From positions 124,001-188,000 of the forward strand of contig NZ_QMEM01000001.1 of the NCBI RefSeq assembly GCF_003390915.1: 64,000 nucleotides of DNA, in the 5' to 3' direction. The notes under the pieces are model-generated. The model was not told the DNA's origin. It searched no databases and saw only the letters and a list, made by a program, of their open reading frames with translations. Shown here piece by piece: positions 41,990 to 58,160 of this stretch. Source of the DNA: Lewinella sp. IMCC34183. GTDB lineage: Bacteria > Bacteroidota > Bacteroidia > Chitinophagales > Saprospiraceae. Each line of letters opens with the position of its first letter. Position 1 is the first letter of the stretch. The translations under genes and the position numbers were made by a program.

Positions 41990-43642
41990 CTAGTCCATGT
42001 CCGCCGGGCGGTCGCGAGCCGCAGCCAGCGGATCGGAATTCTGTAGCAGGCGTAATGCCTCCTGCACCGTCTCGTCGGCACGGTTGTACACCTCATAGTA
42101 GGCCGCGGTGCCAAACAGTTGCCGGCCCAGCCGGGCCTCGAACTGCCGCCGCAGCTCGTCGCGCAGGTGGCGCGGGAGCTCGGGACTAACGTCGGGGTAA
42201 TCGCGCCGCGCCAGTGCCGCCAGGTCCTCCGTGATGGCCTCCATATCAGGACGGAAGCGACGCACCAGGTCCGTGGCGTCGGCGTAGTCCTGCACGGCGG
42301 GGTGGGCGCGTACGTAAGTGAACATGTAGGGGACGATCTGCTGCCGGAGGCGCAGGAAGTTTTCGTTGTTGAGGCTGCTGTCGATCGGCACGAAATGGTC
42401 CGGCGTGATGCCGCCGCCACCGTACACCGGGTAGCCGTTGTCGGTGTAGTACACCAGCGAGCTGTCGACCTGGATGGCCGTACGGCCAGTCAGTTCGCCG
42501 CTTTCGAAGCGCCGGTTGAGGTCGCCGCGGTAGTCCTCATCGCCCTCGTAGCTGCGCTGGATGCTGCGGTCACTGGGGGTGTAGTAGCGCGCCACGGTGA
42601 GGCGCAGGGCGGAGCTGTCCGCCAGCGGATACTGCTCCTGGACGAGCCCCTTGCCGAAGGTTCGCCGTCCGACGATGATGCCGCGGTCGTGGTCCTGTAC
42701 GGCACCGGCCACGATCTCGCTGGCACTGGCCGAGCCGCCGTCTACCAGAATGGCCACCTTCTGGATGTTGTACTGGGCGCGCCCGCTGGAGCGGTACGGC
42801 TGCCGGCTGCTGTTGCGCCCTTCGGTATAGACGAGCAGGACGCCCCGCTGTACGAAGAGCTCGCTGAGCAGTTTGGTGGCCTCCTGCAGGTAGCCGCCGG
42901 GGTTGCCGCGCAGATCGATGATGAGGTTCTTGGCACCGGCTTTCTCGAGGTGCTCCTCGAGGGCCTTCATGAACTCCGAGTAGGTGTTCTGGCTGAAGCG
43001 GTTGATCTTGACGTAGGCGGTTTCCGGATCGATGGTATAGGCGGCGTCCACGCTGTAGACGGGGATCGGGGCGCGGGTGATGGCGAACTTGATGAGCCCG
43101 TCCTGCCCCGGGCGGTGAATCCGCACGTTTACGTCGGTGCCGCCCTGACCGCGCATGAGGCTGGCGGGGTCGATGCCGCGCTCCTCGACCTGGGTGACCA
43201 GGCTGTCCTCGACGTAGATCACCTGGTCGCCGGGCAGTAGTCCCGCCGTCTCCGAGGGGCCGCCTGGCAGGGCGCTGACCACCGTAATGGTGTCGTCAAC
43301 GACAAGGTACTCGATGCCGATGCCTTCGAAGTTTCCCTCCATGGATTCGGTGAGGGCCTGCATTTCCTCCTTGGGGATGTAGCTCGAGTGGGGGTCGAGC
43401 TCGCTAAGGATGGCCTCGATGGCGGCTTCGTAGAGCCCCTCGGTATCCGGGGCATCGACGTAGCGGGCCTCGATGTAGCCCATCAGCTGTTCGACGCGTC
43501 CGCTCCCTTCGCCGCCGGTACTGCCGCGGCCGATGGAAAGCAGCGGGGCGTCGTTGGCGAGCAGGTAGCCGGTCAGCAGGCCTACGCCGAGTAGCAGGCT
43601 ATAGGTCAGGGGCGTCCAGATGGTTCTGCTCTCGTTCTGCAT
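41990..43642 (-). CDS. S41-family C-terminal processing peptidase with PDZ domain
   Basis: A 550-residue tail-specific-type protease. One membrane segment lies near residue 15-30, then a helical region, a PDZ domain (~90-170: GIGIEYLVVDDTITVVSALPGGPSE) and the S41 domain. The catalytic Ser is in DGGSASASEIVAG (about 305) and the Lys in RRTFGKGLVQEQ (about 330). A C-terminal extension of ~170 residues is typical of Bacteroidota members. It probably processes or degrades periplasmic proteins. Confidence 0.93.
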   Translation of the reverse strand: MQNESRTIWTPLTYSLLLGVGLLTGYLLANDAPLLSIGRGSTGGEGSGRVEQLMGYIEARYVDAPDTEGLYEAAIEAILSELDPHSSYIPKEEMQALTESMEGNFEGIGIEYLVVDDTITVVSALPGGPSETAGLLPGDQVIYVEDSLVTQVEERGIDPASLMRGQGGTDVNVRIHRPGQDGLIKFAITRAPIPVYSVDAAYTIDPETAYVKINRFSQNTYSEFMKALEEHLEKAGAKNLIIDLRGNPGGYLQEATKLLSELFVQRGVLLVYTEGRNSSRQPYRSSGRAQYNIQKVAILVDGGSASASEIVAGAVQDHDRGIIVGRRTFGKGLVQEQYPLADSSALRLTVARYYTPSDRSIQRSYEGDEDYRGDLNRRFESGELTGRTAIQVDSSLVYYTDNGYPVYGGGGITPDHFVPIDSSLNNENFLRLRQQIVPYMFTYVRAHPAVQDYADATDLVRRFRPDMEAITEDLAALARRDYPDVSPELPRHLRDELRRQFEARLGRQLFGTAAYYEVYNRADETVQEALRLLQNSDPLAAARDRPADMD

Positions 43643-43771: not shown

Positions 43772-46054
43772 ATGCCCCTGCTGGCCCTAGCCTATACCCA
43801 CGAAGACCTGTCCGCCGCCCAGCGTATCGCGGCCGCCGTGGCCCCCGCCGTGGAATTTGAGCACTACGCCGTAGGCCGTGCCAACGACGGCGAGCTGCTG
43901 GCCGACCTGCTCCGCAAGAACCGCCTGCCGGTAGTGCTGCTGGTCAGCGACAGCCTGCTTACCAACCCCAACGCGATGCTGCACGGCGTCGACCTGCTGC
44001 CGGCCGACCGCCGCGTATTGCCGGTGATCATCGACGCCCACCGGCCCGGGCCCGAGGAAGGGGAGGTGATCACGGTACACACCACCCTGCACGACCGCTC
44101 CGACATCACCCGCTACGTGAGCCACTGGCAGGACCGCTACATCGAGCTGCGCCGGGGCGGCAGCGACTACCCCGATGCGGTGGGCCAGCACGCCTTCCGC
44201 AACTACCTGGGCAAGATCCGCGAAACCAGCATCGGGGTCGAGGAAGTCCTCGAACGCATCCTCACCCGCCAGCCGGTGACGGATGCCGACCTGCGCGGGG
44301 ACGCCTACGCCCCCCTGTACCGCTTCGCCGGCACGAGCCTCCCGGACCCAGGCGGGGACGCAGGTGCGGAGCCTTTCGAACCCGAACCAACCGAAACCAT
44401 GCAAGAAACTCTTACCGAAGAGCCGCTACAGCAGCACGTCCGCGACTGGATCGCCCAGGCCTGGGAGATGTCCGACGCCGGCAAGACCCCCGCCGCGCTG
44501 GAGCTGCTGCACCACAGCCTGGAACACCAGCCGGAAGAGCTGGAACTACACTACCAGTACGCCCTGATGCTGGCCCTGGCCGCCGACCGGCTGCCGGCGG
44601 CCCGGCTGGAGATCGACTCCCTCCTCGACAACGACCCGCACTATCCGGAAGCCCTCTTCCTGAGCGGAGAACTGTACCTGGCCGAACAGCGCTACCAGGA
44701 GGCGCGCGACGACTGGGAACGGCTCTACGACGTCCAGGCCGACTACCCCGAGCTCAACCAGCGGCTGGGCTTGCTGCTGGCCGAGCGCTTCCCTGCCGAA
44801 TCCGCGGAGGCGGCGGCCTACCTGCGCGTCGCCTGTAAGCAAGAGGATGCCACGGCCCAGGTCCTCTACCGCTACGCGGAACTGCTCGCCGGGCCCCTGC
44901 AGCGGGAAGAAAAAGCCATCAGCATGCTCTACCGGGCCGTCCACCGCGATCCGGACCACGCGCCCGCCCATTACCGGCTGGCCGTGAGCCAGTTCGACCG
45001 CGGCGAGAACGGCGAAGCGCGCAAGCACTTCCTCCGCGCCGCGGAACTCGAACCGGAATACGACACGCCGGCCAACCGCCGCGCCTTTCTGGGCCGGGTG
45101 ACCCCGGCGAGTGGTGCCATGGCAGCCTCCTCGCCGCCGCCCACGACAACCGGCACGGCGACCGGCGATGCCCTGGTCGCCCTGAAGCAGAATATCGCCG
45201 ACCTCGAGGCCATGCTGGCGGCCCGTACCGACCCCGCACCCGCGGCCCCGCCCCGCCCCGGCGAGGGCAAAACCGTACTGTTGACCGGCGCCACCAGCGG
45301 TATCGGCCTGGCCACCGCCCGCCGGCTCGCCCCGGACGGCTACCGCCTCATCATCGCCGCCCGCCGCACCGAACGCCTGGAGCAGCTGGCCGAAGAACTC
45401 CGGGACGCCCACGGCACCGAAACGCATCTGCTGACGCTGGACGTAGCCGACCGCGAGCGGGTAGGGGAGGCCATCGCCGGCCTGCCCGAGGCGTGGAGCA
45501 ACATTGACATTCTGCTCAACAACGCCGGCAAGGCGAAGGGATTCGACCCCATCCACACCGGCGACCTCGACCACTGGGACGAGATGATCGACGTCAACCT
45601 GCGCGGCCTGCTCTACGTCACCCGCGCGGTCACGCCCGGCATGGTGGCCCGGGGTACGGGGACCATCGTCAACGTCGCCAGCACCGCCGGCAAGGAGGTG
45701 TACCCGAACGGCAACGTCTATTGCGCCACCAAGCACGCCGTGGATGCCCTGACCTACGCCATGCGGCTCGACCTGGTGCAGCACGGCATCCGCGTGGGGC
45801 AGATCTGTCCGGCCCACGTGGAGGAGACGGAGTTTGCCGTCGTCCGCTTCGACGGCGACCGCGAACGGGCCAGGATTTACGAGGACTTCCAGCCGCTACG
45901 CTCCTCCGACGTTGCCGAAACCATTCACTACATGATCAGCCGCCCGGCCCACGTTAATATTATGGACGTCGTGCTGCAGGGCACGCAGCAGGCCAGCTCC
46001 ACCGTGGTGGACCGCAGTGGTCGGGAGCGCTTTGCACCCCGCGAAGAAGAATAG
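43772..46054 (+). CDS. three-domain fusion: TIR-like, TPR array, short-chain dehydrogenase
   Basis: A 760-residue cytoplasmic protein. Residues ~1-150 fit a TIR-like fold: LALAYTHEDL at strand A, VVLLVSDSLL at strand D and RVLPVII. The catalytic Glu of NAD-cleaving TIRs (in SxxWCxxE) is not seen; the aligned stretch reads TNPNAMLHGV. A short acidic linker leads to a TPR region (~218-426, e.g. ALELLHHSLEHQPEELELHYQYALML). A second linker precedes a complete SDR (~504-740): TGATSGIG, an RRTER patch favouring NADP, NNAG, a Ser in NVAST and the YCATK catalytic pair (Tyr about 650). It starts 130 bases from the divergent S41 gene; tmk begins one base after its stop. Catalytic substrate unknown. 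Confidence 0.85.
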   Translation: MPLLALAYTHEDLSAAQRIAAAVAPAVEFEHYAVGRANDGELLADLLRKNRLPVVLLVSDSLLTNPNAMLHGVDLLPADRRVLPVIIDAHRPGPEEGEVITVHTTLHDRSDITRYVSHWQDRYIELRRGGSDYPDAVGQHAFRNYLGKIRETSIGVEEVLERILTRQPVTDADLRGDAYAPLYRFAGTSLPDPGGDAGAEPFEPEPTETMQETLTEEPLQQHVRDWIAQAWEMSDAGKTPAALELLHHSLEHQPEELELHYQYALMLALAADRLPAARLEIDSLLDNDPHYPEALFLSGELYLAEQRYQEARDDWERLYDVQADYPELNQRLGLLLAERFPAESAEAAAYLRVACKQEDATAQVLYRYAELLAGPLQREEKAISMLYRAVHRDPDHAPAHYRLAVSQFDRGENGEARKHFLRAAELEPEYDTPANRRAFLGRVTPASGAMAASSPPPTTTGTATGDALVALKQNIADLEAMLAARTDPAPAAPPRPGEGKTVLLTGATSGIGLATARRLAPDGYRLIIAARRTERLEQLAEELRDAHGTETHLLTLDVADRERVGEAIAGLPEAWSNIDILLNNAGKAKGFDPIHTGDLDHWDEMIDVNLRGLLYVTRAVTPGMVARGTGTIVNVASTAGKEVYPNGNVYCATKHAVDALTYAMRLDLVQHGIRVGQICPAHVEETEFAVVRFDGDRERARIYEDFQPLRSSDVAETIHYMISRPAHVNIMDVVLQGTQQASSTVVDRSGRERFAPREEE

Positions 46055-46055
46055 T

Positions 46056-46676
46056 ATGGAACGTCCCCTCTTTATCGTAGTGGAAGGCCTGGACGGCAGC
46101 GGCAAGACCACCCAGGTCGAGCGGCTGCGCCATTATTTCCAGGCCCGCGGCGCGTCCTGCCACCTGACCGCCGAGCCCACCGAATTACCCACCGGGCGCC
46201 TGATCCGGAGCATCCTGCAGAAGGAGCATGCCGTCGATCCGCGTACCCTGGCCGCCCTGTTCGCGGCCGACCGGGTGGAGCACATCTTTCATCCCGACAG
46301 CGGTATCCTGGCACAGCTGGCCGCCGGTCACCACGTCATCGCCAGCCGCTACTACTTCAGTAGCCTGGCCTACCAGAGTGAGTTCGTCGATCCCGGCTGG
46401 ATCGCCGCACTGAACCGGGAAGCGAAGCGTAGCCTGCCCGCGGACCTGACCCTCTTCCTCGACCTGCCCCCCGAAGTGAGCATGGAGCGAATCGCCAGGC
46501 GGCCGGGTAACGACGAACTGTACGAGACCCTGGAGAAACTTACCCATGCCCGGGAGAGCTTTCTGCAGGCCTTTCACTACTTCGGGGAGGGGGAGAACAT
46601 CGTGTCCGTCGATGCCACCGCTTCGGTCGAAGACGTGGGCGAGGCAATCATTCGCGCAGTAGAAGAGGTCGCCTGA
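46056..46676 (+). CDS. tmk: thymidylate kinase
   Basis: Phosphorylates dTMP to dTDP. The 206-residue P-loop kinase has VEGLDGSGKTTQ, the DR-type motif AADRVEHI, the YYFSSLAYQ segment and a LID with RIARRPGNDELYE. It starts one base after the stop of the TIR/TPR/SDR gene, so it is surely co-transcribed. This ties an unusual fusion protein to nucleotide metabolism, though the link may be only transcriptional. Confidence 0.94.
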   Translation: MERPLFIVVEGLDGSGKTTQVERLRHYFQARGASCHLTAEPTELPTGRLIRSILQKEHAVDPRTLAALFAADRVEHIFHPDSGILAQLAAGHHVIASRYYFSSLAYQSEFVDPGWIAALNREAKRSLPADLTLFLDLPPEVSMERIARRPGNDELYETLEKLTHARESFLQAFHYFGEGENIVSVDATASVEDVGEAIIRAVEEVA

Positions 46677-57389: not shown

Positions 57390-58160
57390 TCAACGTGCCT
57401 GCATCCGGATGCCGGCGTCCATACGTACGGTCGTACCGTTGAGGTAGTTGTTCTCCACGAGTTGCTGCGCCAGTTGCGCTACCTCGTCGGGCTTGCCGAG
57501 GCGGGTGGGGTAGAGCGGTTGCTGCGACAGGGAGTCGAACACCTCGGTGGGAAAGGCATCGAACATGGGAGTATGGATGAGCCCCGGAGCGATAGCGTTG
57601 ACGCGGATGCCGTTGCGGGCCAGGTCGCGGGCCATGGTGAACGTCATACTCACCACGCCGCCCTTCGAGGCGCTGTAGGCCGCCTGTCCGATCTGCCCTT
57701 CGTAGGCTGCTACGGAGGCGGTATTGATGATGACCCCACGGCTGCCGTCGTCGTCGAGCGGCTCGTTGTTGGCCATGGCGTAAGCCGCGATGCTGGCGAC
57801 GTGGAAGGTGCCGATGAGGTTGATGGAGATCACCTTGGCAAACATGGCGGGATCGCCGGGGCCGTCGCGGCCGATGGTCTTGACGGCCGGCGCGATACCG
57901 GCGAAGTTGCAGCAGACGTGCAGGGCGCCAAAATCGGCCACCACCGCGTCTACCGCGGTTTGTACGGACGCGGCGTCGGTCACGTCGACCCGGTAGAAGG
58001 CGGCCCGCTCGCCGAGCTCGTCGGCAATTCGGGTTCCGGCGTCCTGGTTCAGGTCGAGCAGCGCCACGCGTGCGCCGAGCCGGTGAAAGCGCCGGGCGGT
58101 CGCCTCGCCGAGGCCGGAGGCGCCGCCGGTAATGAGGGCGGTAGAGTCCTTTAGGTTCAT
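57390..58160 (-). CDS. SDR-family 3-hydroxyacyl-CoA dehydrogenase (HSD10-like)
   Basis: A 256-residue SDR. NAD-binding TGGASGLGEA with Asp in LLDLNQ (favours NAD), a CNFAG in place of NNAG, catalytic NTASVAAYEG and YSASK. The sequence resembles type-2 3-hydroxyacyl-CoA (2-methyl-3-hydroxybutyryl-CoA) dehydrogenases. As first gene of the acyl-CoA carboxylase run (45-base gap) it suggests isoleucine or propionyl-CoA breakdown. Confidence 0.87.
   Translation of the reverse strand: MNLKDSTALITGGASGLGEATARRFHRLGARVALLDLNQDAGTRIADELGERAAFYRVDVTDAASVQTAVDAVVADFGALHVCCNFAGIAPAVKTIGRDGPGDPAMFAKVISINLIGTFHVASIAAYAMANNEPLDDDGSRGVIINTASVAAYEGQIGQAAYSASKGGVVSMTFTMARDLARNGIRVNAIAPGLIHTPMFDAFPTEVFDSLSQQPLYPTRLGKPDEVAQLAQQLVENNYLNGTTVRMDAGIRMQAR

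Follow-up and report, generated by a model that had tools for sequence, protein, structure and literature searches.

A single gene of the marine bacterium Lewinella sp. IMCC34183 encodes, in one chain, a TIR domain that lacks the glutamate for NAD cleavage, a TPR array and an apparently active short-chain dehydrogenase (SDR), and its GTDB family shows the same order of domains in 75 of the 150 genomes searched. The reading proposed for this fusion is that a scaffold-type, non-NADase TIR serves to cluster an active NADP(H) dehydrogenase or to dock it; the scaffold step is one that we infer, and the proposal as a whole is made tentatively, at somewhat less than even chances. The window analysed is a stretch of 64,000 nucleotides (contig NZ_QMEM01000001.1), and the positions of the gene, its parts and its neighbors are listed in Table 1.

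Table 1. Features of the fused gene and its neighbors, with positions in the window
Feature	Position	Strand	Basis
Whole gene, from TIR and helical extension through linker, TPR array and helix to SDR	43772..46054	+	ORF and Pfam; same order in 75/150 family genomes
TIR core, residues ~1-95	43772..44056	+	Profile matches: Pfam TIR_2, MyD88, ordinary TIRs
His71, catalytic-Glu column of ordinary TIRs	43982..43984	+	Family alignment and hhalign
Helical extension, residues 96-165	44057..44266	+	Conservation; helices in low-confidence model
TPR array, residues ~219-440	44426..45091	+	Pfam TPR models; helical repeats in model (its better-predicted part)
Linker helix ahead of SDR, residues 463-485	45158..45226	+	Predicted model, helix at low pLDDT
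SDR domain, YdfG-like, residues 498-760; catalytic N609, S637, Y650, K654	45263..46051	+	Pfam/NCBIfam, structure matches, alignment
tmk (dTMP kinase); neighbor, outside the architecture	46056..46676	+	TIGR00041, 152.9 bits against cut-off 83.25
Divergent S41 C-terminal processing peptidase gene; neighbor of fused gene	41990..43642	-	

Domain architecture of the fused gene

The frame of 760 codons starts with ATG and includes no internal stop, and several TPR models exceeded the Pfam cut-offs in the window protein. The original prediction, made from this one sequence, was of an unbroken TIR-TPR-SDR chain; besides the open frame, the same order was recovered from four named Neolewinella/Lewinella genomes and, when sought more widely, from the 75 family genomes. 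A mis-join or frameshift, including a sequencing error that joins separate genes, is ruled out as the source of the three-domain chain, since its order recurs in so many genomes. The linker helix ahead of the SDR is 58-71% identical inside the genus and 12-46% outside it among the rows compared, and a DIPG-like linker motif was matched by pattern in 17 of 45 members. A term-based search of the open-access literature, in which other wording would be missed, gave no description of this architecture, and none of the terms dehydrogenase, SDR, TPR and Rossmann came up when a survey of TIRs (PMC7075850) was searched for them.

The N-terminal domain is identified as a TIR by sequence profiles. The window protein alone matched no TIR family of Pfam at E<=1, and its whole genome gave no TIR_2 match; therefore, the identification rests on the family. 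A call from the single window sequence failed, and profiles were needed. Residues 1-183 were searched in the 150 family genomes, 77 of which matched, and 45 N-domains (the window, four named loci and 40 of the 76 other matching genomes) were aligned (alignment A1). When these were scanned singly, 23 of the 45 matched TIR_2 (PF13676) at E<=0.001, and none had a match to a different Pfam family; by loosening the level to E<=1, TIR_2 was matched by 39 (best E 6.7e-10) and TIR by eight. The TIR_2 cut-off of 28 bits was exceeded by some fused relatives (32.1 in G001) and missed by others (27.8 in L047, 25.3 in L066). The profile of all 45 rows gave MyD88 TIR chains as the best PDB match (E 1.1e-4), and hhalign comparison of the family with 24 ordinary TIRs of relatives gave a probability of 97.0 (E 1.2e-10, 91 columns); these 24 were aligned out of 30 loci fetched, L170-L173 and the near-copies L164 and L177 being left out. 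The TIR-like N-terminus of the prediction is borne out by these three lines of matches. An AF2 model of the N-domain built from five sequences (mean pLDDT 60.8) had a strand and helix order compatible with TIR, and a second model, which takes in the TPR array and the linker helix and was also built from five sequences, reached a pLDDT of 58.8; a Foldseek search of PDB with the low-confidence N-domain model returned nothing within E<=0.001, and none of the 50 matches listed was a TIR. The span of residues 1-150 originally given to the TIR was somewhat too long, because the core ends near residue 95 and the rest is a conserved helical extension.

The prediction had also noted that the Glu needed for NAD cleavage is not seen, and this holds for the whole family: the catalytic-Glu column holds Glu in none of the 45 members, as against 21 of the 24 ordinary TIRs, so that the residue by which NADase or cyclase TIRs are recognized is lacking. 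The column is instead occupied by Gly (14 members), Arg (nine), Gln and Asn (five each), Lys (four), His and Asp (three each), Ser and Leu (one each), the window having His71. Cleavage of NAD(P) through another acidic residue might be considered from the three members with Asp in this column and from the acidic residues common at other positions (D60 in 40 of 45), but as Glu is missing from all 45 rows and the column holds G, R, Q, N, K, H, S or L in 42 of them, such residual cleavage is extremely improbable. Bacterial NADase TIRs such as Thoeris ThsB belong to the same superfamily, and one family member gives a weak ThsB match; they differ from the present family, which lacks the catalytic Glu in 45 of 45 members and for which no defence context was found.

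The loss of Glu, yet with much of the TIR core retained in 45 of 45 rows, might also be read as the mark of a ligand sensor, whose pocket would bind a nucleotide such as NAD(P), ADP-ribose or one of its cyclic forms without cutting it and would switch the SDR via the TPRs; the partner SDR would use a related cofactor. Invariance in the N-domain, however, is highest at Y115, W119 and R127, identical in all 45 members, so that conservation peaks in the helical extension and not in the core, and a sensor of this type is considered rather unlikely.

The SDR domain looks active as judged by its catalytic residues. Pfam adh_short was matched at residues 500-689 (E 8.7e-55), and the motifs TGATSGIG, NNAG and Y650xxxK654, by which SDRs are defined, are all present in the window. 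The closest solved structures, 2nwq (E 3.9e-56), 3asu (E 6e-56) and also 3rku, which we take to be the P. aeruginosa-type enzyme, E. coli YdfG and yeast YMR226C, respectively, are aligned across almost the whole domain including the catalytic residues. The window SDR differs from these YdfG-type enzymes in being fused to TIR-TPR and in its score against the YdfG equivalog NF007829, which at 222.6 bits is below the curated cut-off of 411 and yet is the best of the NCBIfam families listed. In alignment A2 (42 full-length rows; L055, L071 and L072 of the 45 were omitted as running off the contig or locus), the catalytic N609, S637, Y650 and K654 are kept in 41, 42, 40 and 41 members, the exceptions being L057 with a decayed SDR and L075 with Phe for the catalytic Tyr. 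An Arg pair after the second strand is usual for NADP use, and at this place R531 is kept in 41 and R532 in 40 of the 42. An intact NADP-type SDR, as originally described, agrees with both sets of residues, and the protein is a YdfG-type SDR, predicted to be NADP(H)-dependent, its probable substrate being a 3-hydroxy acid or the semialdehyde of it.

Three further observations concern SDR copies. L057 (5581-8019, minus strand) is an open-frame fusion that retains TIR and TPR, its SDR being without the active-site YxxxK region, and may represent a pseudoenzyme. Two genomes (G046 and G137) carry a second, stand-alone SDR (L206/L207) beside the fused one, the fused copy in G046 being L075. In the window itself, a further SDR paralogue is located at 57567-58145 on the minus strand, with 31% identity to the SDR domain.

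Distribution and inheritance of the fusion

With the TIR profile at E<=0.001, a total of 91 of the 150 family genomes were matched, of which 87 were counted as carriers; the other four were set aside, their sole match being weak and in another protein. Among the 87 carriers, 75 have the SDR in the frame of the TIR on the same contig, two (G048, G148) have it as an adjacent separate gene, and one (G059) has it on the same contig in another frame. Seven carriers (G138, G008, G123, G022, G110, G132, G010) have a TIR frame that is short or close to the end of its contig, and either no linkage was visible or the SDR was on another contig; in two (G045, G102) the SDR is decayed or was not found. Another 45 of the 150 family genomes have the stand-alone SDR only, with no TIR-TPR.

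Across the class, the TIR profile matched 11 of 395 genomes, strongly in only three, all of its own family, while the SDR was found at E<=1e-40 in 156 of 198 genomes of the class, including two from the same family. Among the SDR matches listed outside the family, the gene is single-copy, the identity is 44-62% and no open frame exceeds 493 amino acids; this stand-alone Bacteroidota orthologue is evidently the same SDR, and it differs from the fused form in being without TIR-TPR. Since the SDR is widespread without the fusion in the class and the TIR is strong only in its own family, the stand-alone SDR is the widespread state, to which TIR-TPR was added within one family of Bacteroidota.

In the SDR tree, from which L057 and three paralogues were omitted, the labels clustered strongly, with seven changes for the 42 fused rows against a mean of 32.7 after shuffling, but support of the deep branches was weak. 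A single origin of the fusion is not singled out by this tree; given the weak deep support, one gain followed by losses and several gains both fit. Across 34 members from outside the genus, the pairwise identities of TIR plus extension correlated with those of the SDR (Spearman 0.50), none of 2000 permutations being as high; this is as expected for a unit inherited together, and shared descent alone would give the same.

Gene neighborhood and the question of defence

The ATG of tmk, at 46056, is one base behind the TAG stop of the fused gene (46052-46054), exactly as originally noted. Coupling to tmk as part of the function was not supported by the comparison, since tmk follows directly in all 20 genus genomes examined and in none of 38 loci outside the genus; with the pairing confined to the genus, tmk is rejected as a functional partner as a general rule.

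Outside the genus, the neighbor is a different one. A lipoprotein-like gene of about 450 codons is located directly upstream of the fused-type gene in 37 of the 38 loci (L045-L082), the one exception being L066, in which the sequence ends close upstream. The product, read as a lipoprotein from its N-terminus, has in its full-length form a C-terminal AhpC-TSA/redoxin domain (E 3.4e-11) with weak ResA/TlpA-type matches, and its N-terminal part has no Pfam match. Among 37 loci with a stand-alone SDR (L097-L133), 33 also have this gene ahead of it, overlapping the SDR start or lying a few bases from it (median 5; 14 of 31 overlapping). The redoxin-like lipoprotein gene and the fused gene thus stand in what reads as an operon-like context outside the genus. 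No lipoprotein gene was found beside the SDR in 23 class loci outside the family, which is a further difference of the stand-alone orthologue; homologues of the lipoprotein gene are nonetheless present in the order beyond the family, in eight of 15 genomes. In the window genome, the gene is on another contig (C56), and lipoprotein gene, fused gene and tmk in a row were seen only in G549 among the 20 genus genomes.

Variants of this region were also observed. A short lipoprotein-like form without the redoxin part is present in L067 and L074, the L067 version having no Pfam match. At position -2 of many loci, in 22 fused-type clusters, a conserved protein of about 175 amino acids is encoded upstream of the lipoprotein gene (L056, 9433-9957, minus strand, and equivalents); it has no Pfam or NCBIfam match.

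In L094 and L095, lipoprotein, TIR-TPR and SDR are three separate genes in this order, and in L096 lipoprotein and TIR-TPR are followed by no SDR. Together with L057, in which TIR-TPR is kept with a decayed SDR, these loci would suit an independent adaptor, in which TIR-TPR serves the branch of the redoxin-like lipoprotein or another partner and the SDR was captured through its operon position. Against this, fusion is seen in 75 genomes, and the SDR is the best conserved part, its identity to the four closest relatives being 81-85% versus 54-71% for TIR core and TPR, with catalytic residues in 40-42 of 42 members; capture of this kind is held to be decidedly unlikely.

As to defence, the window protein matched none of the PADLOC families at E<=0.01, and among three relatives one gave weak matches (ThsB at E 0.0039, and TPR models). 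No relatives were found on viral contigs (query P0001), on plasmids (the N-domain of the window) or in phages (the N-domain of L047), and a mobile element or defence island is rejected on this basis. The domain is single-copy in most genomes matched and is present in 20 of 21 genus genomes, including all 19 near-complete ones. The defence-like sensor that the prediction had offered as one possibility is not supported by this distribution, and the best reading is a vertically kept core gene rather than a defence island. Remote TIR relatives in the class (L086, L087, L088, L089, L092) have AlbA_2, dynamin, STAND NTPase or COR/EAD11 domains attached to the TIR, combinations that are common in conflict systems. 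An anti-phage or other conflict module with the SDR as effector or sensor could be argued from these relatives and from the weak ThsB match of the one member, but the single copy, the genus-wide presence, the stable neighbors and the lack of plasmid, phage, viral-contig and PADLOC matches as given above make it very improbable.

Possible role as a scaffold for the dehydrogenase

As the TIR is without the known NADase chemistry, a role in scaffolding or docking is the most likely one, and the docking module that the prediction had proposed for the reductase is a plausible form of it. In a review (PMC8635717), TIR assemblies are divided into scaffold and enzyme types, MyD88 and MAL belonging to the scaffolds. 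The window family resembles them in being a TIR by profile with MyD88 as the best PDB match, and the printed alignment shows no Glu at the matching place in MyD88 either; it differs in being bacterial, with its own helical extension and with a chain that also carries TPRs and an enzyme, in place of the death domains or kinases of MyD88/MAL. What is seen here is the missing Glu and the match to MyD88; assembly would follow by analogy. TIR-TIR contacts, aided by the conserved helical extension, may assemble several copies or dock them onto a partner; the TPRs, repeats that usually bind proteins, would bind a partner or client; and the SDR might thereby be clustered, placed or regulated.

The scaffold reading is favored by the TIR identity with MyD88 as best PDB match, the missing Glu, the retained catalytic residues of the SDR, the fusion of TIR-TPR to the SDR in half of the family genomes, the adjacent genes of L094/L095, the correlated identities of the two parts and the presence in all 19 near-complete genus genomes. 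Against it are the low-confidence models with no TIR among the Foldseek matches listed, the fact that shared descent would give the same correlation, and the Phe of L075 in place of the catalytic Tyr. Also against it are the 45 family genomes without TIR-TPR, and L057 and L096, in which TIR-TPR is retained and a working or detectable SDR is missing; from these two groups, it follows that neither half strictly needs the other, and TIR-TPR kept without SDR also fits a role of its own.

A bolder form of the scaffold proposal is possible, albeit unlikely: catalytically dead TIRs would polymerize and in this way build active NADP(H) dehydrogenase into a switchable, higher-order scaffold, conflict-type TIRs having been domesticated into core metabolism as a bacterial counterpart of the TIR signalosome.

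Most discussion of bacterial TIRs treats them as enzymes that consume NAD, and here a bacterial TIR is without the catalytic Glu throughout a lineage. This Glu-less TIR sits in cis on an enzyme of a well-characterized and assayable type, and TIR scaffolding outside immunity in bacteria is therefore directly testable, with fused, split, SDR-less and TIR-less relatives as natural controls in one family. The family gives a hint that bacteria, too, may use TIR domains to scaffold metabolic enzymes.
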